Of a stretch of DNA of 64,000 bases, positions 5,351 through 31,958 are shown one piece after another. The first letter of the stretch is position 1, and the number at the start of each line of letters is the position of its first letter. The translations under genes were made by a program, and so were the position numbers. Under the pieces are notes generated by a model. The model had not been told where the DNA came from. It worked only from the letters and a program-made list of their open reading frames with translations, and did no database searches. This DNA is from Azospirillaceae bacterium (GTDB taxonomy: Bacteria > Pseudomonadota > Alphaproteobacteria > Azospirillales > Azospirillaceae): NCBI GenBank assembly GCA_031291675.1, contig JARLIO010000034.1, forward strand, positions 248,001-312,000. The letters are read 5' to 3'.

Positions 5351-8122
5351 ATGAGCACGGAAAAACAACGGCCATCGCCTGATGCGCTGCTGGAGCAAGT
5401 CAAACGCGAAACCCGCGGCCGGCTCAAGATCTTCCTCGGCGCGGCCCCCGGGGTCGGCAAAACCTACGAGATGCTGCAGTCGGCCCATGCCGCCGTCGCG
5501 GACGGCATTGATGTCGCCATCGGCGTCGTCGAATGCCATGGTCGCTCCGAGACCGAGGCCCTGGTCCGCGGCCTTGAGGTGATTGCGAACCGGCGGGTCG
5601 ACTATCGCGGCCGGGTGCTGGAAGAGATGGACATCGACGCGGTGCTGCGTCGCCATCCCAAGCTGGTCCTGGTCGACGAACTGGCCCACACCAACGTGCC
5701 CGGCAGCCGGCACCTCAAGCGCTATCAGGATGTCGACGAACTGCTCGACGCCGGCATCGACGTGCTGAGCACCGTCAACATCCAGCATATCGAAAGCCTG
5801 AACGACGTCATTGCGCGGATCACCCGCGTCCGGGTTCGCGAGACCCTGCCCGACAGCGTTCTGGAGGCCGCGGACGAGATCGAGCTGGTGGATCTGACCC
5901 CGCAGGAGCTGATCAAGCGCCTGTCCGAAGGCAAGATCTATGTCCCCGAACAGGCCAAGCGCGCGCTGCTGCACTATTTTTCGCCGGGCAATCTGACCGC
6001 GTTGCGCGAATTGGCGCTGCGCCGCACCGCGCAGCGCGTCGATGAGCAGATGCTGAGCTATATGCGCCAGCATGCCATCGTGGGTCCCTGGGCGACCGAC
6101 GAACGCATTCTGGTCTGCATTTCCGGCGACGAGCGGGCGGCGGCCCTGGTCCGTTATGGCAAGCGCGTCGCCGATCGCGTCCGTGCCAAATGGACCGTGC
6201 TGATGATCGAAACCGCCCGCCAGGCGCAACAGAGCGAAGCGGAACGCGACCGGGTCGCCGATACCCTGCGCCTGGCCGAGCGGCTCGGCGCCTCGACGGT
6301 CACGCTGCCCGGGCGACGCGTTGCCGAGGACATCCTGGCCTATGCCCAGGAATACAACATCACCCAGATCATTCTCGGCAAGACCGAGCGATCGCGCTGG
6401 GCCGACCTGGTCCGGGGCTCGGTCACCCGCGACCTGTTGCGCCATGCCGGTTCGATCAGCGTCCATATCATGGCCGGCGACGGCGGCGATGACCCCCTGC
6501 CGCCCAAGACCGTCAAGACCCGCGACGCACCCCGCACCACCAACCCCTTTGCCGCCAATCCGATCGGTTACATCGCGGCAACGCTGTTCGTCGCGCTGGC
6601 CCTGGGCGCCGGTGAGTTGATCCAGATCGTCGCCAATGTGTCAAACGTGGCCCTGGCCTTCCTGATGTCGGTGCTGGGCAGCGCGGTGCTCTATGGCCTC
6701 GGCCCCTCCTTCTATGCCGCCCTGTTGAGCGTGGTCGCCTATAATTTCTTCTTCCTGCCGCCGCTTTACACCTTCACCATCGCCGACCCCGCCAATGTCA
6801 TCGCCCTGTGTTTTTTCCTGGTTGCCGCGGTCCTGACCAGCCAGTTAGCCACGATCGCCCAGTTCCAGATCGAGGCCGCCAAGCGCCGGACCCGGATCAC
6901 CGCCGAGCTGTACGGCTTTGCCCGCAAGCTGGCCGGCATCGGCAAGCTCGACGATCTGTTATGGGCCACCGCCCACCAGTTTGCCGTGATGTTGCAGGTC
7001 CGCGTCGTGATTTTGATGCCGCCGGTTCACCGCGCCGATGCCCCGCTGCGGGTCTGCGCCGGCTACCCGCCCGAAGATCAGCTTGATGACGGCGATCTCG
7101 CCGCGGCGCAATGGGCGTGGAACCACAATCGGGCCGCGGGACGCGGCGCCGATACCCTTCCCGGCGCCCGGCGTCTGTTCATGCCGATGCGCACCGAGCG
7201 CGGGCCCCTGGCGGTGATCGGGATCGATGCCGACGTCAACGGCCCGATCCTGACCCCCGACGGCCGGCGGCTGTTCGACGCGCTGTCGGACCAGGCCGCG
7301 ATCGCGATCGAGCGCGTCGCCCTGGCCGAGGATCTCGACGAAGTGCGGATCATGGCCGAGACCGAGAAACTGCGCTCGGCCCTGCTGACCAGCATCTCCC
7401 ATGATCTGCGGACGCCGCTGGCGTCGATCATCGGCGCGGCAACCGGTCTGGTCGCCAATGGCGACAATTACGCGTCGCCGATCCGGGCCGAGCTGGCGAG
7501 CACGGTGCTGACCGAGGCGGAACGGCTCAACCGCTTCATCGGCAATCTGCTCGACATGACCCGGCTGGAGTCCGGGGCGATCCATGCCAAGCGCGAGGCC
7601 TTCGATGTCGAGGACGTGGTCGGCACCGCGCTGGAACGCTGCCGACAGATCCTGGCCGGACACAAGGTCAAGGTCGCGATCCCGCGCAATCTGCCGCTCG
7701 TCGTCGGTGACTTTCTGCTGATCGAACAGATCCTGGTCAATCTGCTCGACAATGCCGGCAAATACGCCCCCGCCGGCACGACAATCCGGGTCGAAGCCGT
7801 GGCGAACAACGGTTCGGTCAGCATCGCGGTCGCCGACGAGGGCCCCGGCATCCCTGCCGAGGCCACCGACCTGATCTTCAACAAATTCTACCGGGTGACG
7901 GCGCGCGATCGCCAGGTTGCCGGCACCGGGCTGGGGCTGGCGGTGTGTCGCGGCTTTGCCGAGGCGATGGGCGGCACCGTCATCGCCGCCAACCGCCACG
8001 ACCGGCTGGGCGCCCTGCTGACCCTGACGCTGCCCGCCAGCACGGCGGCCACCCTGACCGACGAGGTTCTTGAGGCCAACGCGGCCGCGGAAGCAGGGCA
8101 TCCCGAAATTTCCGCCCGGTAG
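5351..8122 (+). CDS. kdpD: KdpD, osmosensitive K+ channel sensor histidine kinase
   Basis: A 923-residue membrane sensor kinase with the complete KdpD architecture. The N-terminal KdpD domain carries a Walker A motif GAAPGVGKT (residues 30-38). A universal-stress-protein-like domain lies at about 250-375. About four membrane segments lie between 397 and 497. A GAF-like domain follows, then HisKA with phospho-acceptor His684 in SISHDLRTPLAS, and a HATPase with N (NLLDNAGKYA) and G boxes (GPGIP, GTGLGLAVC). It senses K+ limitation or turgor and phosphorylates KdpE. The target operon kdpFABC is not in the window, so this pair acts in trans or has another regulon. Confidence 0.95.
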   Translation: MSTEKQRPSPDALLEQVKRETRGRLKIFLGAAPGVGKTYEMLQSAHAAVADGIDVAIGVVECHGRSETEALVRGLEVIANRRVDYRGRVLEEMDIDAVLRRHPKLVLVDELAHTNVPGSRHLKRYQDVDELLDAGIDVLSTVNIQHIESLNDVIARITRVRVRETLPDSVLEAADEIELVDLTPQELIKRLSEGKIYVPEQAKRALLHYFSPGNLTALRELALRRTAQRVDEQMLSYMRQHAIVGPWATDERILVCISGDERAAALVRYGKRVADRVRAKWTVLMIETARQAQQSEAERDRVADTLRLAERLGASTVTLPGRRVAEDILAYAQEYNITQIILGKTERSRWADLVRGSVTRDLLRHAGSISVHIMAGDGGDDPLPPKTVKTRDAPRTTNPFAANPIGYIAATLFVALALGAGELIQIVANVSNVALAFLMSVLGSAVLYGLGPSFYAALLSVVAYNFFFLPPLYTFTIADPANVIALCFFLVAAVLTSQLATIAQFQIEAAKRRTRITAELYGFARKLAGIGKLDDLLWATAHQFAVMLQVRVVILMPPVHRADAPLRVCAGYPPEDQLDDGDLAAAQWAWNHNRAAGRGADTLPGARRLFMPMRTERGPLAVIGIDADVNGPILTPDGRRLFDALSDQAAIAIERVALAEDLDEVRIMAETEKLRSALLTSISHDLRTPLASIIGAATGLVANGDNYASPIRAELASTVLTEAERLNRFIGNLLDMTRLESGAIHAKREAFDVEDVVGTALERCRQILAGHKVKVAIPRNLPLVVGDFLLIEQILVNLLDNAGKYAPAGTTIRVEAVANNGSVSIAVADEGPGIPAEATDLIFNKFYRVTARDRQVAGTGLGLAVCRGFAEAMGGTVIAANRHDRLGALLTLTLPASTAATLTDEVLEANAAAEAGHPEISAR

Positions 8123-8144
8123 CGGCGAATGGCGCAAATTGCGC

Positions 8145-8173
8145 TTGTCAGATCCCGGGCGCCTTTGCATACT
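8145..8173 (+). promoter_or_regulatory. Sigma70-type promoter of a small transcription unit
   Basis: TTGTCA (8145-8150), a spacer of exactly 17 bases, then CATACT (8168-8173), close to the consensus. It lies just after kdpD and about 37 bases before a very strong Shine-Dalgarno, and it points at the short ORF at 8210. Confidence 0.6.
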
Positions 8174-8209
8174 GAGAACGGTTTTCAATTAAAGAGAGGA
8201 GGTGATCCA

Positions 8210-8287
8210 GTGTCTCATTGTCATCTGCCGCGGCCTTCGGCTCGCGTGACCTGGGTCTTCGCTTCCATCCGCGGATACCGCGCGTAA
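8210..8287 (+). CDS. Possible 25-residue small protein or leader peptide
   Basis: A GTG-initiated ORF of 25 codons (starting VSHCHLPRPSARV), preceded at 7 bases by GGAGG inside AGGAGGTGATCC (8197-8208). That stretch is complementary over 11 or more bases to the usual 3' end of 16S rRNA, far beyond a normal ribosome binding site. A promoter lies upstream and an intrinsic terminator begins 44 bases after the stop, so the unit could make a transcript of about 185 nt. A second GTG at 8202 would give a 15-codon ORF in another frame. The peptide is not recognised; it could be a leader peptide, an independent small protein, or part of a small RNA. Confidence 0.45.
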   Translation: MSHCHLPRPSARVTWVFASIRGYRA

Positions 8288-8330
8288 GTCGATGTTCCGC
8301 GCTTCGCGTTGAATCGCGGTTTGACAAGGG

Positions 8331-8398: not shown

Positions 8399-8848
8399 GT
8401 GAGCATCTTCATCGACGGCGACGCCTGCCCGGTCAAGGACGAGGTGCTCCGCGTCGCCGAGCGGCATGGCCAGACCGTGCATCTGGTCAGCAATCGCTGG
8501 CTTCGCGGCTACGATCACCCGCTGGTCGAGAAGACCGTCGTTGCCGACGGCATGGATGCCGCCGATGACTGGATTGTCGCGCATATCGGCCCCGACGATA
8601 TCGCCGTCACCGCCGATATTCTGCTGGCCGGCCGCTGCCTGGAGCGTCAGGCTCAGGTCCTGGGGCCAACGGGGAAACCGTTCACCGCCGATTCGATCGG
8701 CATGGCGAAGGCGATGCGCGAGTTGTCGGCCCAATTGCGCGACAGCGGCGATCTGAGCGGCGGCCCCGCCCCTTTTGTTCGCCAGGACCGGTCGCGCTTT
8801 CTGTCGGCCCTGGAAAACATGGTCCAGGCGATCCGCCGCCGCGGTTGA
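8399..8848 (+). CDS. YaiI/YqxD family protein (DUF188)
   Basis: A 149-residue protein of the UPF0178/DUF188 family, recognised from IDGDACPVKDEVLRVAERH at the N-terminus and GRCLERQAQVLGPTGKPFT in the middle. The conserved acidic residues at the front resemble a PIN-like nuclease site, but no activity is proven for the family. I chose GTG at 8399 because it gives the family's usual start and length (about 150 residues) and lies after the terminator at 8331-8366. An upstream in-frame start at 8309 would add 30 unlike residues. Confidence 0.85.
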   Translation: MSIFIDGDACPVKDEVLRVAERHGQTVHLVSNRWLRGYDHPLVEKTVVADGMDAADDWIVAHIGPDDIAVTADILLAGRCLERQAQVLGPTGKPFTADSIGMAKAMRELSAQLRDSGDLSGGPAPFVRQDRSRFLSALENMVQAIRRRG

Positions 8849-8872
8849 TCCGCTGGTGGCGCTCGCATTCGA

Positions 8873-9127
8873 TCAGGCGGCGGGATCGTCGGTGAGATCC
8901 AGGCGACGGCTGATCCGGGCGATCTGGCCCCGCACCCGGTCGAGTTGCGCCTGCAGATGCGCCACGGTTTCAGCATCGGTGGCCTGATCGCGGCGATTGC
9001 GCGCCTGTCCTTCCTCAAGACGGTTGAGGTGGACCAGGACTTCATCCTGTCCACGCTGGAGATCGTCCAGCGCAGCGTCCATCCGGCGCAGATAGACCAG
9101 CACAAGATTCTCAGGTTCATCGGACAT
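8873..9127 (-). CDS. Small coiled-coil protein of unknown function
   Basis: About 84 residues beginning MSDEPENLVLVYLRRMDAALDD, followed by heptad-rich helix (LNRLEEGQARNRRDQ, LQAQLDRVRGQIARISRRLDL) typical of a coiled coil. Similar short proteins starting SDEPENLVLVYLR are common in alphaproteobacteria and have no assigned role. An in-frame ATG at 9142 would add MMGGP; the internal ATG fits the conserved N-terminus better. It is convergent with yaiI. Confidence 0.65.
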   Translation of the reverse strand: MSDEPENLVLVYLRRMDAALDDLQRGQDEVLVHLNRLEEGQARNRRDQATDAETVAHLQAQLDRVRGQIARISRRLDLTDDPAA

Positions 9128-9430
9128 AGGGCCACCCATCAACGATCAGGAACAAGGATAGCTCATGGGCCGGATGCCGACGATTCCGAACCCGCGAGTT
9201 CATCACCTGTTTCAGTAAAGCAGATGGCGGCGGATTTGGTGATCGGCATGGCGCTCGCCCCGCTGACTCTTGTGCGTGCTCACGCAATGTCTTCCAGATC
9301 GACGCTTCGATAAGAAGTATATCTTGCAACGACTCAATTCAAGGGCGCAGCATCAAGCGCTTTGCGCCCATCGCGCTCAATCAGTCGAGGCCGTCAGCCC
9401 TCCAGAACAGACATCCCACCCGCCCCGCCG
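9128..9430. other. Intergenic stretch without a recognised gene
   Basis: About 300 bases upstream of the coiled-coil gene and downstream of the exported hydrolase gene. It presumably holds the promoter of the small coiled-coil gene. No RNA gene, repeat or clear hairpin was seen. Confidence 0.35.
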
Positions 9431-10537
9431 CTACTCCGCCGCCGAATCGAACAGCGCGGCCCGCGCGGCGTCGGCGGGGAACACGCAGCGGACGTCGTGC
9501 GCACAATCCGGGACGATAACCAACGGATGCGGCCGGTCCGGGGCCAGGACCTGACGGTCATACTGGGCGTAACCCAGCCCGCGTTGCAGCCGGAACGGTC
9601 CCTGGGCCATCGCGGCACAGGACTTGTCCAGGATCCGATAGGCGGTGCCCCGGGCGGTGCCGGTGTCGAGGGCGCCCTCGAGATAATGGATATCGGCCTG
9701 GACATAGCGCGCCCGCGCCGCCGCGGCATCGCGCCCCAGGCGCGCCGGCATCCGGTCGGTACCATATTTCCAGTCGTTCGCACTGGCGCAGGACGCCGTC
9801 ACCGGCGCCAATGACAGCGGACAATCGCCTGCCGCTCCGCAGGCCGCGGCATCAACCGCCGGGCTCGGTTGCGGGCGCACCGGATCGAAATAGAGCCAGG
9901 AGCCGGGATCGGCGATGACATAGCGGATCTTCAGCCCGAGATCCGGCGGCACCGCGGCGAAACCGATATAGTGCTGCACAAATTGCGCCCCGGCGGAAAA
10001 GCCCGCGATCGTGACGCGGTGCAGGCTGGGCCAGCGGCGATGCAGTTCGAGCACCAGGGCGTCCATCGCCGCGAAAGACGTGAAGTCCGCACTGTTGTCG
10101 GCCGCGTCGCCGCCCTCCCAGGAGTCGCAGCGCCACAGCAGGTCACCCGGTGCCGCCTCGGGCACGCCGGCGCTATGGCAGCGCGCGGCGTCGGCGGCCG
10201 CGACCTGAAACACCGGTGCGACGATCAGCATCCCGTCCGCCGCACCGGCGCGGCGCGCGGCGCGCAGGGCCGCGTCAAAGGTGCGGTTGGCATCACGGGG
10301 ATGGCCATGCACCGCGATCAATGCGGTTCCGGGTGCGGCATTTTCAGACGCCGGGGCCGCGAAATAATCCAGACGGCCGCCGGCTCCCGGCGGCTCGAAC
10401 GTAAAATAACAGGCGGATGATGCGGAATCAGAGCACGCGGTCGCGGCGATCCCGGGCCGTGGCATGGCGGCGACAAGCGCCACGCCGATCGTCGACAACG
10501 CGGCGCACACCGTCTTGCGAATTGTCCTGATCGTCAT
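9431..10537 (-). CDS. Exported alpha/beta hydrolase
   Basis: A 368-residue protein with a Sec-type signal peptide (positively charged start, hydrophobic stretch, likely cleavage after GIAATA near residue 33). The hydrolase core shows LIAVHGHPRDANRT (oxyanion region), AGFSAGAQF (nucleophile Ser) and VIVPDCAHDVRC, whose His is the likely catalytic base. There are many cysteines, as in disulfide-bonded periplasmic enzymes. It should act in the periplasm or outside on an unknown ester or peptide. It stands alone, 35 bases upstream of the sirtuin gene on the same strand. Confidence 0.7.
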   Translation of the reverse strand: MTIRTIRKTVCAALSTIGVALVAAMPRPGIAATACSDSASSACYFTFEPPGAGGRLDYFAAPASENAAPGTALIAVHGHPRDANRTFDAALRAARRAGAADGMLIVAPVFQVAAADAARCHSAGVPEAAPGDLLWRCDSWEGGDAADNSADFTSFAAMDALVLELHRRWPSLHRVTIAGFSAGAQFVQHYIGFAAVPPDLGLKIRYVIADPGSWLYFDPVRPQPSPAVDAAACGAAGDCPLSLAPVTASCASANDWKYGTDRMPARLGRDAAAARARYVQADIHYLEGALDTGTARGTAYRILDKSCAAMAQGPFRLQRGLGYAQYDRQVLAPDRPHPLVIVPDCAHDVRCVFPADAARAALFDSAAE

Positions 10538-24943: not shown

Positions 24944-25507
24944 GCCTGGTCATGCCCCGGCGGACGCCATCCGCCTTCGCCGGGGTGCGACGTCTGGCCA
25001 AGCCTGACGCGGTGAGAACAGCTCAGGTCTCTGTTTTGTCGCATTTTCTACGCCCAACCGGAACCCACCTGGTCGGAAAATGCTCTGGCAGCCTTTCACG
25101 AAACCGCCGGAGCGGCACGAGATGTGCTGAAGATCGACAGACTCGAACGGCCCGAGCCGTCGGCGGGAGTACGGAAATTTTGACACGCATTGGTCGTGCC
25201 GCAAGTCCCGGGCTTCTCCGATCGAAGGATTGAGACGCGCGTTTCAGGAATGGCCGCGTCTCGAGCCGCCGTCAGGGTCCAGGACTCACCGAATTCCCGA
25301 CAAACGAACATTGGTCAAGGAAATGACGGCGCAACAGCCGATGCGTCCGGTGGTGAGCCCTTTTGGTCAAGGGCGCACGCTCACCGATAAACGTCACTTG
25401 ACGTAACGACCATTCAAAAGGTAGCCAATCGCCTGCGAATATCAACCAAGGGGGCCGGACGAACCGGCATGCGACGCCCAGCTACAATGGAAGGTAGATA
25501 TCTAATT
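24944..25507. other. Gene-poor stretch before traT with a dispersed repeat
   Basis: About 560 bases. It holds a copy of a dispersed repeat (25034-25086) and otherwise only short frames without similarity to known proteins. The promoter of the TraT-like gene should lie near its end, where the sequence becomes less GC-rich. No RNA gene was recognised. Confidence 0.4.
25034..25086 (-). repeat. Dispersed 53-bp repeat, inverted copy
   Basis: The reverse complement reads AGAGCATTTTCCGACCAGGT and on to the end TGCGACAAAA. It matches 50312-50364 at all but about one position. The two copies lie 25 kb apart in opposite orientation, both intergenic. Confidence 0.85.
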
Positions 25508-26323
25508 ATGAACATTTTCTTAAAGGCTTTACTTGGCGCCTTTGCCGCGGGCGCTTTGGCCGGTTGCCAGGCGACAAGCGATGTGATTCATCACAGCGAC
25601 CTCAGTGTCCAGACGCACATGAGCGAGACGGTATTCCTGGATCCGGTTCCGCCTGCGCTCAAGACGATTTACGTTTCCGCGCGCAACACGTCGGACCATC
25701 CCGAGATTGATCTGCGCGGACCGTTGACGGCTGCGATCGCGGCACGCGGGTACCGGATCGTCGATGATCCGAACGCGGCGCACTACATGCTTCGAATCAA
25801 CATTCTCCAGGCCGGTCCGATCGATACCAAGAACCGCGACGCCATGCTGATGGGGCGTTACGGCGAGCCGTTGCTCGCGGGGGCAGGCGCGGCGGCAATC
25901 GCCGGCGGTCTGGGCGGCGGCTCCGGCGCGATGACCGGTGCGGGACTTGGCGTCGGTGTTGCCACATTCCTGGCGAATGAGATGATTCAAAACGTCACCT
26001 ACTCGGTGGTCGTCGACATTCAACTGTCCGAACGACCCCTGAGTGGCAAGAAGGTCAAACAAAGCACATCGACGGTTGCCCATCAGTCCAACGGATCGTC
26101 GGACTATGCTGTCACGTCACAGACGCCGACGGGCTATGGAACCAGCAGCAGCAATAGCTACAATGCCAGAACAAAAACACAAAACATCGACGAAGACTCC
26201 GATTTCAAACAGTATCAGACTCGCGATATCGCCTATGCGGAAAAGGTAAACCTGAAATTCGAGGAAGCATCGGGACCGTTGCTGGCGCGCCTGACGTCGT
26301 CTCTCAGCAATCTGTTCGAATGA
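25508..26323 (+). CDS. traT: TraT-family outer-membrane lipoprotein (complement resistance / surface exclusion)
   Basis: A 271-residue lipoprotein: signal peptide and lipobox LAGC, with Cys after GALAG. TraT hallmarks follow: DLSVQTHMSETVFLDP, then NTSDHPEIDLRG, a glycine-rich membrane stretch (LLAGAGAAAIAGGLGGG), and the C-terminal YQTRDIAYAEKVNLKFEEA. In F-like plasmids TraT forms an outer-membrane oligomer that blocks redundant mating and gives serum resistance. No other tra genes are present, so this is a chromosomal orphan, either domesticated or with an envelope role. The GGAAGG 14 bases upstream is a loose ribosome site; an in-frame ATG at 25487 is the alternative. Confidence 0.9.
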   Translation: MNIFLKALLGAFAAGALAGCQATSDVIHHSDLSVQTHMSETVFLDPVPPALKTIYVSARNTSDHPEIDLRGPLTAAIAARGYRIVDDPNAAHYMLRINILQAGPIDTKNRDAMLMGRYGEPLLAGAGAAAIAGGLGGGSGAMTGAGLGVGVATFLANEMIQNVTYSVVVDIQLSERPLSGKKVKQSTSTVAHQSNGSSDYAVTSQTPTGYGTSSSNSYNARTKTQNIDEDSDFKQYQTRDIAYAEKVNLKFEEASGPLLARLTSSLSNLFE

Positions 26324-26368: not shown

Positions 26369-26565
26369 CACCGTCACGGGCAGAGCTGTCAAATGACGGG
26401 GAAACCGGGGCCGCTTTACGCACTCCCCGCGACGGCAGTCCGGTCGCGGTGTACAGGTTTTGTCGGCGGAACGACCCGATCCGCCACTTCGGCTGAATTG
26501 CCTAATATGTCGCCATATTTTCACCGTTCCCCTGACCGGCGATGGCACAGCGGAAATAACCGGCT

Positions 26566-27681
26566 TTATCCGCTGACGGCTCGATTGACCAAATGACCGA
26601 TGAAACCAGCATAGGCAACCACGCTGAAAGCGGCGGCATAATGATTGATCCGCCTGACCGTGCGAGGGTGGTGCGCCTTGAACCACTGAATCACAACCGT
26701 CACCAGGATCCCAAAGATGATAGCCAAAAACGTTGCCAACTCGATGCCATCCGCAAGCGTAAAACTCGACGACGGCGGCAAATAGTTGTCGATAATATAT
26801 TTATTCCCAATTGCCGCAAAAATTGCTCCCGCGCTCAGGCCCACACGCGACGCTGCCATGCCAACGGCATCCATAAAATACGAGAGAAGAACCAACGTAA
26901 ATGCCACAAAAAATCCGATGAACATGCTGCAAAGAATTCGCAATCCGGCACGTTTTATCGTTATATCGGCAACAATGCGGGAATATGTGCTGTCTCCGTG
27001 AAGCGTAGGATCGCCATATGTGGTATCATATACGCTGTCTATAGATTTTATGGAAAATGACTCAATATTCCATCCCGGAAGCCTTACTTCCTTGTCAATC
27101 TTGCTGTTTTCTGCGTCTGCCACGAAAATTGTCTGAGATTCATCATTGACAGAATCTTCCAATGATATACGCAGTACCTGACGATCAAATGGAAAGCTAT
27201 CGATATTCCAATCTTGTATCAATAATGCATTATATTTTGCCTGCATCCAAAACACGTCGGCATTTCCGCCATCCCAGGGGATATTATTATATGGTATAAC
27301 AGCACTAAATTTTGTCGATGAGGCTTTTGCATTGACAACTTCAACATTATCGACTGGCTTATATTTTCCGTCTGTTGTCTGATACCAACCCCAAAAGGTC
27401 GCATTGAAGGATCGCTTTGCCATATCAATGTCATATAACTGCGTAAGGTATATCCCAACCTTGACCTTGTTGGGCACCGCGGTGACTGGCTGAGGCGGCG
27501 GAAGGGCTGTTGTTATCGTGACGCTGCCCGCTGGTTTCGACGAGGGCACAATGGGTTTCACCACGCCATTTTTCTCGGCGGGTGTCGCCGCCTGCACCCA
27601 CGATACGCCAAGCGAAAGCAGCAGCCCGATGGCAAGCGCCGCGCCTAGGGATACAAGACGATTTATTTTTACATGAAACAT
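26566..27681 (-). CDS. Pentameric ligand-gated ion channel homologue, copy 1
   Basis: A 371-residue protein of the Cys-loop/Pro-loop receptor superfamily. A signal peptide (about 1-31) and a Pro-rich linker precede a beta-sandwich extracellular domain (about 73-245) with the diagnostic Pro-loop FPFD at 163-166. Four membrane helices follow (about 247-270, 278-300, 312-333, 348-368). The pore-lining region includes GMAASRVGLSAGAIFAAIGN. Homologues such as GLIC and ELIC are cation channels opened by protons or amines; the ligand here is unknown. It is near-identical to copy 2 exactly 1563 bases downstream, with most differences in the linker and extracellular domain. Base composition is AT-richer than in neighbouring genes. 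Confidence 0.85.
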   Translation of the reverse strand: MFHVKINRLVSLGAALAIGLLLSLGVSWVQAATPAEKNGVVKPIVPSSKPAGSVTITTALPPPQPVTAVPNKVKVGIYLTQLYDIDMAKRSFNATFWGWYQTTDGKYKPVDNVEVVNAKASSTKFSAVIPYNNIPWDGGNADVFWMQAKYNALLIQDWNIDSFPFDRQVLRISLEDSVNDESQTIFVADAENSKIDKEVRLPGWNIESFSIKSIDSVYDTTYGDPTLHGDSTYSRIVADITIKRAGLRILCSMFIGFFVAFTLVLLSYFMDAVGMAASRVGLSAGAIFAAIGNKYIIDNYLPPSSSFTLADGIELATFLAIIFGILVTVVIQWFKAHHPRTVRRINHYAAAFSVVAYAGFIGHLVNRAVSG

Positions 27682-27830
27682 TGCGTCGCTCCACAGGGTT
27701 TGATCAGTTGCCAGCTTCTGTCTTTTTTTGATTCAAATTTCGTTCGGCCTTTTCTTTTATGGCTAGAATCGGATATCGACGCAATGATTCGACGAGCAAA
27801 GGCGGCGACGATGCTGTAACCGGGAAAACC

Positions 27831-27876
27831 GGGACGGACGTCCCCCGCTCTCTCCGGGAGACCGGAAATCCGTCCC
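27831..27876. terminator. Terminator between psp remnant and channel copy 1
   Basis: GGGACGGA (27831-27838) pairs with TCCGTCCC (27869-27876) and encloses smaller dyads. On the minus strand the stem is followed by GGTTTT and on the plus strand by GCTTTTT, so it could stop transcription in either direction. The second copy of this region (about 29395-29440) is more degenerate. Confidence 0.5.
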
Positions 27877-27889
27877 GCTTTTTGCCCGT

Positions 27890-28065
27890 TCAGCGCTCCA
27901 AATCCCGGAACTGACGATTCAGGGTGGAGTCATTGGCAGCGACATAACCTTCGATCCCACGCGACCGCCGCTCCCGGTCGTGGAATTTCTGCCTGAGCCC
28001 GGCCAGCGTTCGATCGGGCTTGAGGCTGACCGCGCGCCTTGATCCGGTTGACCGTTGTCGCCTGG
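27890..28065 (-). pseudogene. Remnant of a deleted pspA-pspB-pspC copy
   Basis: Bases 27890-28036 still encode, with stop codon, the last 48 residues of a PspC (AVSLKPDRTLAGL ... NRQFRDLER), parallel to the intact gene at 29448. At 28037 the match jumps to 29 identical bases from inside pspA (28037-28065 = 30294-30322, encoding QATTVNRIK). The junction removed the rest of pspA, all of pspB and most of pspC. It proves that a full psp operon once stood upstream of channel copy 1. Confidence 0.85.
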
Positions 28066-28128
28066 ATTACGTCATGCGTCCCCAGGGTCTCCGGGCCGAT
28101 AAGGGCACGGCAATAATCGCCGGCTTTG

Positions 28129-29244
28129 TCAACTGGCGGCTCGATAGACCAAATGACCGATGAAACCAACATAGGCAACCACGCTGAAGGCGGCGGACCA
28201 ATGATTGATCCGCTTCACCGTGCGGGGGTGGTGCGCCTTGAACCACTGAATCACAACCGTCACCAGGATCCCAAAGATGATGGCCAAAAACGTTGCCAAC
28301 TCGATGCCATCCGCAAGCGTAAAACTCGACGACGGCGGCAAATAGTTGTCGATAATATATTTATTCCCAATTGCAGCAAAAATTGCTCCCGCGCTCAGAC
28401 CCACCCGCGACGCTGCCATGCCAATGGCATCCATAAAATACGAGAGAAGAACCAACGTAAATGCCACAAAAAATCCGATGAACATGCTGCAAAGAATTCG
28501 TAATCCGGCACGTTTTATCACGATATCCGCAATAACACGGGAATATGTGCTGACCCCTTGAAGCGTAGGATCGCCATATGTTGTATCATATACGTTGTTT
28601 ACAGATTTTATAGAAAACGATTCGATAACCCATCCCGGAAGTTTCAATTCCTGGTCAATCTTGCTGTTTTTTTCATCTGCTACGAAAATTGTCTGTGATT
28701 CATCATTTATGCCATCTTCCAGATTTATGTGCAGCACCTGACGATCAAATGGAAAGTTATCGACGTTCCAATCCTGCATCAACAACGCATTATATTTTCC
28801 TTCCGTCCAAAATACATCGGCATTCCCACCATCCCAGGGGATATTATCCCTTGTCGTAACAGAACCAAATTTCGTCAATGAGGCTTTTGCATTGACGATT
28901 TCAACATTGTCGAGCGGTTTATACTTTCCATCAGTTGTCTGATACCAACCCCAAAAAGTTGCATTGAAGGATCGTTTTGCCATATCAATGTCATATAATT
29001 GGGTAATGTATATGCCAACCTTGACCTTGTCGGGCGCCGCCGCGGTTGGCAGGGGCGCCGGAAGCGGCGCTGCTGTTGTCGCGACGGTCCCCACTGGTTT
29101 CGACGCGGAGACGACGGGTGTCGTCGCGCCATTTTTCTCGGCGGGTGCCGCCGCCTGCGCCCACGACGCAGCAAGCGAAAGCAGCAGCCCGATGGCGAGC
29201 GCCGCACTTGCGGATACAAGATGATTTATTTTTACACTAAACAT
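28129..29244 (-). CDS. Pentameric ligand-gated ion channel homologue, copy 2
   Basis: A 371-residue paralogue of copy 1 with the same layout: signal peptide, Ala/Pro-rich linker (about 32-72), an extracellular domain with FPFDRQVL at the Pro-loop, and four C-terminal membrane helices almost identical to copy 1. Differences cluster in the linker and in extracellular loops, so the two could form heteropentamers or differ in ligand. It lies about 200 bases downstream of pspC on the same strand, with GGAG eight bases before ATG. It could be an extension of the psp operon or have its own promoter in the 29245-29447 gap. Confidence 0.85.
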   Translation of the reverse strand: MFSVKINHLVSASAALAIGLLLSLAASWAQAAAPAEKNGATTPVVSASKPVGTVATTAAPLPAPLPTAAAPDKVKVGIYITQLYDIDMAKRSFNATFWGWYQTTDGKYKPLDNVEIVNAKASLTKFGSVTTRDNIPWDGGNADVFWTEGKYNALLMQDWNVDNFPFDRQVLHINLEDGINDESQTIFVADEKNSKIDQELKLPGWVIESFSIKSVNNVYDTTYGDPTLQGVSTYSRVIADIVIKRAGLRILCSMFIGFFVAFTLVLLSYFMDAIGMAASRVGLSAGAIFAAIGNKYIIDNYLPPSSSFTLADGIELATFLAIIFGILVTVVIQWFKAHHPRTVKRINHWSAAFSVVAYVGFIGHLVYRAAS

Positions 29245-29447
29245 TGCGTCGCTCCACAGGGATTGATCGGCCGCCGGGTTCTCTACGTTCTTGACTCAAA
29301 TTTCGTTTGGTCTCTTCCCTTATGGCTAAAACCGGACATCGACGCAATGATTCGACTCGCGAAGGCGGCGACGATGCTGCAACCGAAAAGAACGGGACGG
29401 ACCGCCGCCTCCAGAGAGACCGGAGATCCTCCCCGCTTTTTGCCCGT

Positions 29448-29852
29448 TCAGCGCTCCAGATCCCGGAACTGGCGGTTCAGGGTGAAGTCATTGGAGGCGA
29501 CATAGCCTTCCATCCCGCGCAACCGCCGCTCCAGGTCATGGAATTTCTGCGTCAACCCGGCCAGCGTCCGATCGGGCTTGAGGCTGACCGAGCGCCAGAA
29601 CGCCTCCTCTTCGGCATCACGATACAGCCGGTTCGGCCGGGCCGGCAGGATCACCGCGGCGGCCAGATAACCGAGCAGCACCGGCGCGAAAAATACCACC
29701 AGCGCGACGATGCAGACCGCCCGAACCGGCAGCGGATCGACACCGAAATAATCCGCGACGCCGGCGCAGACGCCGAACACGATCCGATGCTCGCGGTCGC
29801 GGTACAGCCGGTGGGGATTGGGCGAACGGAAAAACGAATCCCTCCCGGTCAT
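29448..29852 (-). CDS. pspC: Phage shock protein C
   Basis: A 134-residue PspC: the N-terminal PspC domain NPHRLYRDREHRIVFGVCAGVADYFGVDP (named in parts: HRLYRD and GVCAGVADYFG), one or two membrane helices (about 43-70), and a C-terminal cytoplasmic helix (FHDLERRLRGMEGYVAS). With PspB it senses inner-membrane stress and releases PspF from PspA. Its start overlaps the pspB stop by four bases (ATGA). Confidence 0.92.
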   Translation of the reverse strand: MTGRDSFFRSPNPHRLYRDREHRIVFGVCAGVADYFGVDPLPVRAVCIVALVVFFAPVLLGYLAAAVILPARPNRLYRDAEEEAFWRSVSLKPDRTLAGLTQKFHDLERRLRGMEGYVASNDFTLNRQFRDLER

Positions 29853-30079
29853 GTCCTGGTCCTCCAGGTCGGGGCCTCGGTATCAAGGATCCGTTCCAGG
29901 CTGTTGATCCGGGCTTCGAGCCGGCCGGCGCTGCTCCACAGCTCGGCCAGCATCCGTTCGTCCTCGGCACTGAGCGCCCGGGCCCCGCGCCAGACCGTGA
30001 CATAATGCAGCACGATCCAGATCGGCGCGACGATCACCAGAAACAGAATCGACAGGACGAACATGGGGCCCCCGATCAT
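29849..30079 (-). CDS. pspB: Phage shock protein B
   Basis: A 76-residue protein: an N-terminal membrane helix (FVLSILFLVIVAPIWIVLHY) followed by a charged coiled coil (LSAEDERMLAELWSSAGRLE). This is the standard PspB layout. It overlaps pspA by ATGA upstream and pspC by ATGA downstream, so the three genes are translationally coupled. An internal ATG at 30064 (MFVLSIL) gives the more usual PspB N-terminus. Confidence 0.9.
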   Translation of the reverse strand: MIGGPMFVLSILFLVIVAPIWIVLHYVTVWRGARALSAEDERMLAELWSSAGRLEARINSLERILDTEAPTWRTRT

Positions 30080-30747
30080 CCGACACCGCCGGATTTCAAC
30101 CGGGCCTTGAGGTCGGCGAGTTCCTGGTCGACGGCGCTGTCGACCTCCAACTCGGCAAACTCATCGGCCAGGGTTTTCCGACGACCCAGATCAAAGGACT
30201 CGGCCTTGCCTTCGAGGGCGTCGAGGTTCCGTTCAACCTGCTCGAACCGGGCGAAGGCGTCGGCCAGGCGATCGTCATGCAGCCGCTCCCGCACCTTGAT
30301 CCGGTTGACCGTTGTCGCCTGGCGGTGGGCCAGCGCCTGCTCCCGGGTCTTGGCGTCGGCCAGCTTGGCTTGCAGCTTGGCGATATCGTCGCTGGTCTTG
30401 CCCAGGGCCTCGTCGAGATGGGCCAGATCCGTGGCCAGGGCGCGCTCGCTCTCGGCAACCTTGGCCTTGGCCATCAGGGCACCCTTGGCCAGATCCTCAC
30501 GGCCGCGGGACATGGCCAGCTCGGCCTTGCGCTGCCATTCGGCGATGTCATGGCGCAAGCCCAGAACGCGGCGTTCGATATCCTTGCGTTCGGCGATCGT
30601 CTTGACCGTCGAGGAGCGCACTTCAACCAGGGTGTCTTCCATTTCCTGGATGATCAGCCGGATCAGCTTGGCAGGATCCTCGGCGCGATCCAGCAGGGAG
30701 TTGATATTGGCATTGATGATGTCGGTCAGGCGCGAAAAAATGCCCAT
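30076..30747 (-). CDS. pspA: Phage shock protein A (IM30/ESCRT-III family)
   Basis: A 223-residue, almost entirely helical protein starting MGIFSRLTDIINANINSLLD, the amphipathic membrane-binding helix of PspA. It continues with the long coiled-coil hairpin (AEDPAKLIRLIIQEMEDTLV). It oligomerises on damaged inner membranes to limit proton leakage, and binds PspF to silence the operon without stress. A sigma54 promoter lies 72-86 bases upstream, and pspF is divergent. The first gene of pspABC; the ATG at 30747 has GAGGAGAA upstream. Confidence 0.95.
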   Translation of the reverse strand: MGIFSRLTDIINANINSLLDRAEDPAKLIRLIIQEMEDTLVEVRSSTVKTIAERKDIERRVLGLRHDIAEWQRKAELAMSRGREDLAKGALMAKAKVAESERALATDLAHLDEALGKTSDDIAKLQAKLADAKTREQALAHRQATTVNRIKVRERLHDDRLADAFARFEQVERNLDALEGKAESFDLGRRKTLADEFAELEVDSAVDQELADLKARLKSGGVG

Positions 30748-30818: not shown

Positions 30819-30833
30819 GCAGGGTTCGTGCCA
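30819..30833 (-). promoter_or_regulatory. Sigma54 (-24/-12) promoter of pspABC
   Basis: The minus strand reads TGGCACGAACCCTGC, against the consensus TGGCACG-N4-TTGC, with one mismatch in the -12 box. It sits in the pspA-pspF intergenic region in the right orientation for pspA. Together with the PspF enhancer-binding protein this fits stress induction through RpoN. Confidence 0.8.
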
Positions 30834-30932: not shown

Positions 30933-31958
30933 ATGGCAACACCACTCCCCCCCGTTATCGGCACCGCACCGCTGTTCCTGGCCGCACTGGAGCAGGCGTC
31001 CCGGCTGGCACCGCTGGCCAAACCGGTTTTGGTGGTCGGGGAGCGCGGCACCGGCAAGGAACTGATCGCGGCACGGCTGCACTATCTGTCGCCCCGCTGG
31101 GCCCAACCCTTCATCAAGCTGAATTGCGCCGCATTGCCGGAAACCCTGCTCGAAAGCGAGCTGTTCGGCCACGAAGCCGGCGCCTTCACCGGGGCCAGCC
31201 GCCGTCGGCCCGGCCGATTCGAGCTGGCCGACGGCGGGACACTGTTCCTCGACGAGATCGCCACCGCCTCCAGTCGGGTCCAGGAACAGGTCCTGCGCGT
31301 GATCGAATATGGCGAGTTCGAGCGCGTCGGTGGCCGCGAGACCCTGTCGGTCGAGGTTCGGCTGATCGGCGCCACCCACGCCGATCTGCCGGCGCTGGCC
31401 GCCGCGGGCCGCTTCCGCGCCGATCTGCTCGACCGCCTCGCGTTCGACGTCATTACGTTGCCGCCCTTGCGGGCCCGGGTGGAGGATATTCCGGTCCTGG
31501 CCCAGCAGTTCGGCCAGGCCATGGCACATGAGCTGGGCCATGGCATCTTCGCCGGCTTCGGCCCGGCGGCGCTGGCGGCCTTGATGCAGCATAATTGGCC
31601 CGGCAATGTCCGGGAGTTGAAAAATGTCGTGGAACGCGCGGTCTATCGCGCCGCCGATCCCGCTCAACCGGTTGACAGCGTGATCCTTGATCCGTTCGCC
31701 CCGTCCTGGTGCGCGCCACAGACCGGGACGCCGGCACCGGCAGCCGAACGACCGCACGGCGGGGCCACCCCGGACGAGACACCGCCGACCGAGCCCCCGG
31801 GATTCGAAGCCAAAGTGCGCGCCTTCGAAATCAGCCTGTTGAGAGACGCGCTGCACCGTCATAATGGCAGTCAGAAACAGGCTGCCGAGGATCTTGGGCT
31901 CGGCTATCACCAATTTCGCCATTATTTGCGGAAATATCCCGACCTCTCCAAAGCGTGA
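30933..31958 (+). CDS. pspF: PspF, sigma54 enhancer-binding activator of psp
   Basis: A 341-residue AAA+ activator. Walker A is GERGTGKE, the sigma54-contact loop is GAFTGA, Walker B is TLFLDEIA, and the C-terminal Fis-type helix-turn-helix is NGSQKQAAEDLGLGYHQFRH. There is no N-terminal receiver or sensor domain, as expected for PspF, which is controlled by PspA binding. A Pro-rich linker (about 270-300) is longer than in E. coli. It is divergent from pspA, sharing the regulatory region with the sigma54 promoter. Confidence 0.92.
   Translation: MATPLPPVIGTAPLFLAALEQASRLAPLAKPVLVVGERGTGKELIAARLHYLSPRWAQPFIKLNCAALPETLLESELFGHEAGAFTGASRRRPGRFELADGGTLFLDEIATASSRVQEQVLRVIEYGEFERVGGRETLSVEVRLIGATHADLPALAAAGRFRADLLDRLAFDVITLPPLRARVEDIPVLAQQFGQAMAHELGHGIFAGFGPAALAALMQHNWPGNVRELKNVVERAVYRAADPAQPVDSVILDPFAPSWCAPQTGTPAPAAERPHGGATPDETPPTEPPGFEAKVRAFEISLLRDALHRHNGSQKQAAEDLGLGYHQFRHYLRKYPDLSKA

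Follow-up and report, generated by a model that had tools for sequence, protein, structure and literature searches.

A tandem pair of divergent pentameric ligand-gated ion channel genes beside an ordinary phage-shock locus in an Azospirillaceae bacterium

An ordinary phage-shock (psp) locus, a channel gene of an infrequent but already described type and a clear duplication scar lie together in the 64,000-nucleotide stretch of Azospirillaceae DNA analysed here (the window). We put at roughly 80% the probability that a gene for a pentameric ligand-gated ion channel (pLGIC) was independently acquired or relocated next to this psp locus, was duplicated in tandem and was kept in both copies, which are probably expressed separately from psp. 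An initial annotation of the same DNA had noted that two pLGIC paralogues follow pspABC on the same strand, as they do (the minus strand), and had proposed that the channel belongs functionally with envelope-stress sensing. Little is known of what pLGICs naturally do in bacteria, so a conserved association with envelope stress would have offered a real clue. That the psp and channel genes lie close together seems to be a local chance event and not the mark of a shared system, and the channel pair is best seen as a neighbour peculiar to this lineage, duplicated along with the final part of the psp operon. The features of the locus are collected in Table 1.

Table 1. Features of the psp-channel locus, in the coordinates of the window
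Feature	Position	Strand	Basis and remarks
pspF, sigma-54 activator	30933..31958	+	TIGR02974 485 bits, above cut-off; Sigma54_activat and HTH_8; start codon position predicted
Candidate sigma-54 -24/-12 promoter TGGCACgaaccCTGC	30819..30833	-	1 mismatch to consensus; ~72 nt upstream of pspA
pspA	30076..30747	-	TIGR02977 277 bits, above cut-off; PF04012
pspB	29849..30079	-	PF06667 93 bits; TIGR02976 above cut-off
pspC	29448..29852	-	TIGR02978 113 bits, above cut-off
Terminator-like hairpin (29392-29436) with T-rich tail	29384..29436	-	starts 11 nt after pspC stop
pLGIC copy 1, divergent pentameric ligand-gated ion channel	28129-29244	-	371 aa; GLIC-type matches, NF033918, AlphaFold model and Foldseek
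Fossil of pspA interior, 33 nt	28033-28065	-	matches pspA 30290-30322 at 32/33 (97%); 29 nt exact
Fossil of pspC 3' end	27890-28039	-	150 nt: 147 nt (49 codons) and stop; PspC C-terminus alignment 41/48 identities
Duplicated hairpin between fossil pspC and pLGIC copy 2, diverged	27825..27882	-	19-nt arms
pLGIC copy 2	26566-27681	-	371 aa; 82% identical to copy 1; ligand-binding half dN/dS 0.21

All four NCBIfam equivalog models, for PspA, PspB, PspC and PspF, are matched within this one locus, where pspF is divergent from pspABC and the pspA/pspB and pspB/pspC reading frames overlap by 4 nt each; it is an ordinary, canonical pspF/pspABC envelope-stress locus. The site TGGCACgaaccCTGC is a candidate sigma-54 promoter of pspA, a consensus match as distinct from a mapped promoter, and about five such one-mismatch matches are expected by chance per window; what lends it weight is that it lies between pspF and pspA. 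It is the sole site of its kind in the locus, the consensus scan having given no sigma-54-like site before either channel gene.

The two channel proteins, of which the genome has no further copies, stand apart from the curated families. They score 18.9-19.9 bits against Pfam PF02931 (Neur_chan_LBD; cut-off 26) and 41-45 against NCBIfam NF033918 (cut-off 500), and their NCBIfam LGIC_1 match (1e-10 to 1e-11) is far under its cut-off, a curated threshold such as that of PF02931 or NF033918 being a criterion of library convenience and not a defining trait of pLGICs. With scores of this kind, membership rests on fold and motif. Among sequences of solved structure, GLIC variants and a GLIC-glycine receptor chimera match best (3e-5). 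An AlphaFold model, for which 13 sequences from the window and from related DNA served as input, predicts a beta-sandwich that is followed by four helices (pLDDT 87, pTM 0.76), and its top Foldseek matches in the PDB are GLIC and glycine receptor chains (E ~1e-19, probability 1.00, TM-score up to ~0.8). The Pro-loop residues F164, P165, F166 and D167 (FPFD) are invariant in 12 homologues. By this predicted fold and this motif the channels are genuine but divergent pLGICs, and both would most likely be pentameric channels of the inner membrane, gated by a ligand through a periplasmic ligand-binding domain. As a tandem pair, they could form mixed pentamers.

The nearest homologues of the channels, at 52-56% identity, come from one genus of the family (uncultured Rhodospirillales assemblies) and then from some Azospirillum. 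In a PspA comparison, genera without the channel are at about the same distance from the genome under study or nearer to it, so the channel family has a patchy distribution among Azospirillum and related Rhodospirillales; loss and transfer both fit such a distribution. Conserved neighbours of the channel genes in the relatives are confined to close genome pairs and are varied (a cNMP-gated channel, a GDT1 antiporter, a CheW-like protein and an MFS protein). In one relative (L070), the gene for a cyclic-nucleotide-gated type ion channel (Ion_trans and cNMP_binding domains; 8799-10037) adjoins the pLGIC gene (7125-8294), and a homologue of that cyclic-nucleotide-gated type channel is found beside the pLGIC gene of L071. 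Within the window, the second channel gene is convergent with a TraT-like lipoprotein gene (25469-26323; PF05818, 198 bits), for which the fetched pLGIC loci of the relatives gave no match. The "ART-LGIC" survey of Tasneem et al. (2004; PMC549065) named PBP-II, Cache and Na+/H+ symporter genes as pLGIC neighbours, and not psp.

Adjacency of psp and pLGIC genes is not conserved across lineages in the genomes sampled. Within an order-level set of 82 genomes, pspB was found in 81 and a channel homologue in 31 (the genome under study included), and the two are adjacent in the genome under study only; the pLGIC family is missing from many psp-bearing relatives. A class sample of 385 genomes contained the channel family in 7 and pspB in 45 and provided no second adjacency, the two other genomes with both channel and psp keeping them at least 188 kb apart. 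Both genes are thus present in 32 further genomes (30 from the order-level set and 2 from the class sample), and none of the 38 channel places in these genomes is near pspB: 6 are at distances of 188 kb to 4.6 Mb and 32 are on another contig, which is weaker evidence than a distance because some of the 32 assemblies are fragmented. When PspA, PspB, PspC and PspF were compared by tblastn with 77 loci that had pLGIC matches, psp DNA was detected only in the fossil of the genome under study and in 0 of the 76 other loci; these loci come from a class- and phylum-wide profile search for further pLGICs, overlap in part and have flanks of ~5-7 kb in many cases and ~1.5 kb in some. A scan of genome contigs with a single channel protein had found 0 loci and an alignment-based scan found 13. 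The genus is sampled by this one genome, and close relatives outside the sample may also have the adjacency. The gene-neighbourhood search that had been proposed with the initial annotation has therefore returned no pLGIC gene adjacent to psp in any relative sampled, an outcome that was named beforehand as speaking against a functional tie, and a psp link that is not conserved in the sampled genomes is unsuitable for assigning function to the channel through guilt by association.

The DNA between pspC and the first channel gene points the same way. The gap measures 203 nt, as opposed to the 4-nt overlaps within pspABC, and it contains a hairpin of about -28 kcal/mol that is followed by TCTTTT and was equalled in 1 of 60 dinucleotide shuffles. 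The T tail of this hairpin is short and interrupted, and no clear terminator shared after pspC across the relatives was demonstrable. In base composition, the channel genes (47.5-48.5% GC) differ from psp and the window (~64%). The hairpin, the gap, the restriction of the sigma-54 site to pspA and the GC content of the channel all point to a separate gene, and because a terminator-like hairpin ends pspABC, the channels are probably expressed separately from psp. Transcriptional read-through from psp into the channel is possible, and the same strand, the imperfect T tail and a sigma-70 scan that gave no clear promoter in the gap (and no enrichment overall) would all be consistent with channels that are passively co-induced by psp and have no role in its response. 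The stability of the hairpin, its TCTTTT tract and the rarity of its equal among the shuffles make such co-induction unlikely.

An inverted repeat of 13-14 nt, with its arms 88 nt apart, is kept in both copies (29239-29251/29340-29352 and 27675-27688/27777-27790), where the leader RNA could pair over the start codon of the channel and the sequence just upstream. A check of six relatives did not find it.

We regard as distinctly improbable the proposal that, in this lineage, the channel is functionally part of the psp response, whereby PspF and sigma-54 would drive pspABC together with the channel and ion flux or membrane potential would be altered under envelope stress. The shared strand and order of the genes, the placement of one channel so soon after pspC and the purifying selection on both copies (see below) are in keeping with it, but the adjacency occurs in one genome of all those sampled, a terminator-like hairpin follows pspC, the channels have no sigma-54 site of their own and many psp-bearing relatives do without the family. 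In addition, two published psp-neighbourhood surveys (PMC11237479, PMC9239133) mention no ligand-gated channel in their main text. Most improbable of the proposals weighed here is one limited to this lineage, that a pLGIC pair of predicted non-cation type was recruited into the PspF regulon and might add a ligand-gated conductance to the psp response.

Lineage-specific juxtaposition, followed by duplication, is the history to which the spacer between the two channel genes can be related. The initial annotation had described 147 bases that encode a PspC C-terminus and 29 bases identical to the inside of pspA; both are present, and the 29-nt exact core occurs in only two places in the window and was reproduced in 0 of 100 shuffles. 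The offset of exactly 1563 bases that it reported holds for the starts and for the stops of the two genes, but the register is 1560 nt over their 3' half, owing to a 3-nt indel. The two units are homologous over a stretch that starts within pspC, takes in the intergenic DNA and the complete channel gene, and ends ~40 nt beyond the stop of the latter; the pspA and pspC fossil matches overlap by a few bases at their junction. These alignments show a local tandem duplication of a segment with psp DNA and the channel, the psp DNA being missing from the second copy. The duplicated stretch would have started within psp DNA and finished shortly after the channel; either a deletion or a junction that took up a short bit of pspA may then have left just the tail of pspC, with 33 nt of pspA, between the channels. 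The proposal that a psp-pLGIC unit was duplicated and one psp copy deleted thus stands as to the duplication of psp DNA with a channel. Since neither the promoter nor the start of pspA survives in the second unit, where the remaining psp DNA begins within pspA, duplication of a complete unit is not demonstrated.

With somewhat less than even odds, the spacer might not be what is left of a duplicated psp unit at all: the channel and the pspC tail would have been duplicated, with 33 nt copied out of pspA to fill the junction. The small extent of the pspA material, its position directly at the pspC junction and the overlap of the two matches favour such a filler, but a longer duplication with a simple internal deletion of ~0.7 kb (from pspA to pspC) yields the same picture, and one genome cannot separate the two. 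The alternatives differ in history only, and function is independent of which of them holds.

Both channels are under purifying selection, as judged from codon comparison: the dN/dS of 0.21 in their ligand-binding half (dS 0.52) indicates that both copies were retained as proteins. That the channel was kept both times had been offered as a hint of its association with psp, but both copies go back to one and the same juxtaposition, and two retentions are therefore not independent evidence for an association. Synonymous divergence between the copies is unusually low in the membrane halves (28129-28510 and 26566-26950), where dS is 0.10 as against 0.52 in the ligand-binding half, and a weaker version of this disparity is seen in several orthologue pairs. 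In control comparisons of orthologues from other genomes, synonymous change was likewise lower in the membrane half (p < 0.01 in 3 of 5 pairs), which weakens gene conversion as the full cause. As a partial explanation, gene conversion between the copies is possible but unproven.

In the scenario that we favour, then, a pLGIC gene of a patchy family would have been independently acquired or relocated immediately downstream of pspABC, among the sampled genomes in this lineage only. The useful remainder is a small pLGIC family of Azospirillum and other Rhodospirillales, with a pore entrance that resembles those of anion-selective animal receptors.

The locus can be compared with two known systems. 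With the Psp system of Proteobacteria, it has in common the four equivalogs, the divergent pspF, the -24/-12 site before pspA and the overlapping pspA-B-C order; there is no difference in psp itself, and only the downstream neighbour is unusual. With the prokaryotic pLGICs GLIC and ELIC, the channels share a signal peptide-like N-terminus, a beta-sandwich ligand-binding domain, the FPFD Pro-loop and four transmembrane helices, but they remain under the curated Pfam and NCBIfam cut-offs. On general grounds of pLGIC selectivity, the inner end of M2 bears on the likely ion preference. At this intracellular end the channels have MAASRVGL, which HMMER aligns with AAPARVGL of GLRA1, and the positions of S279, R280 and G282 are invariant in the channel family. 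GLIC has a glutamate there, whereas the present channels have no acidic residue and resemble the glycine receptors with their PARVGL, and from this a preference for anions can reasonably be predicted.
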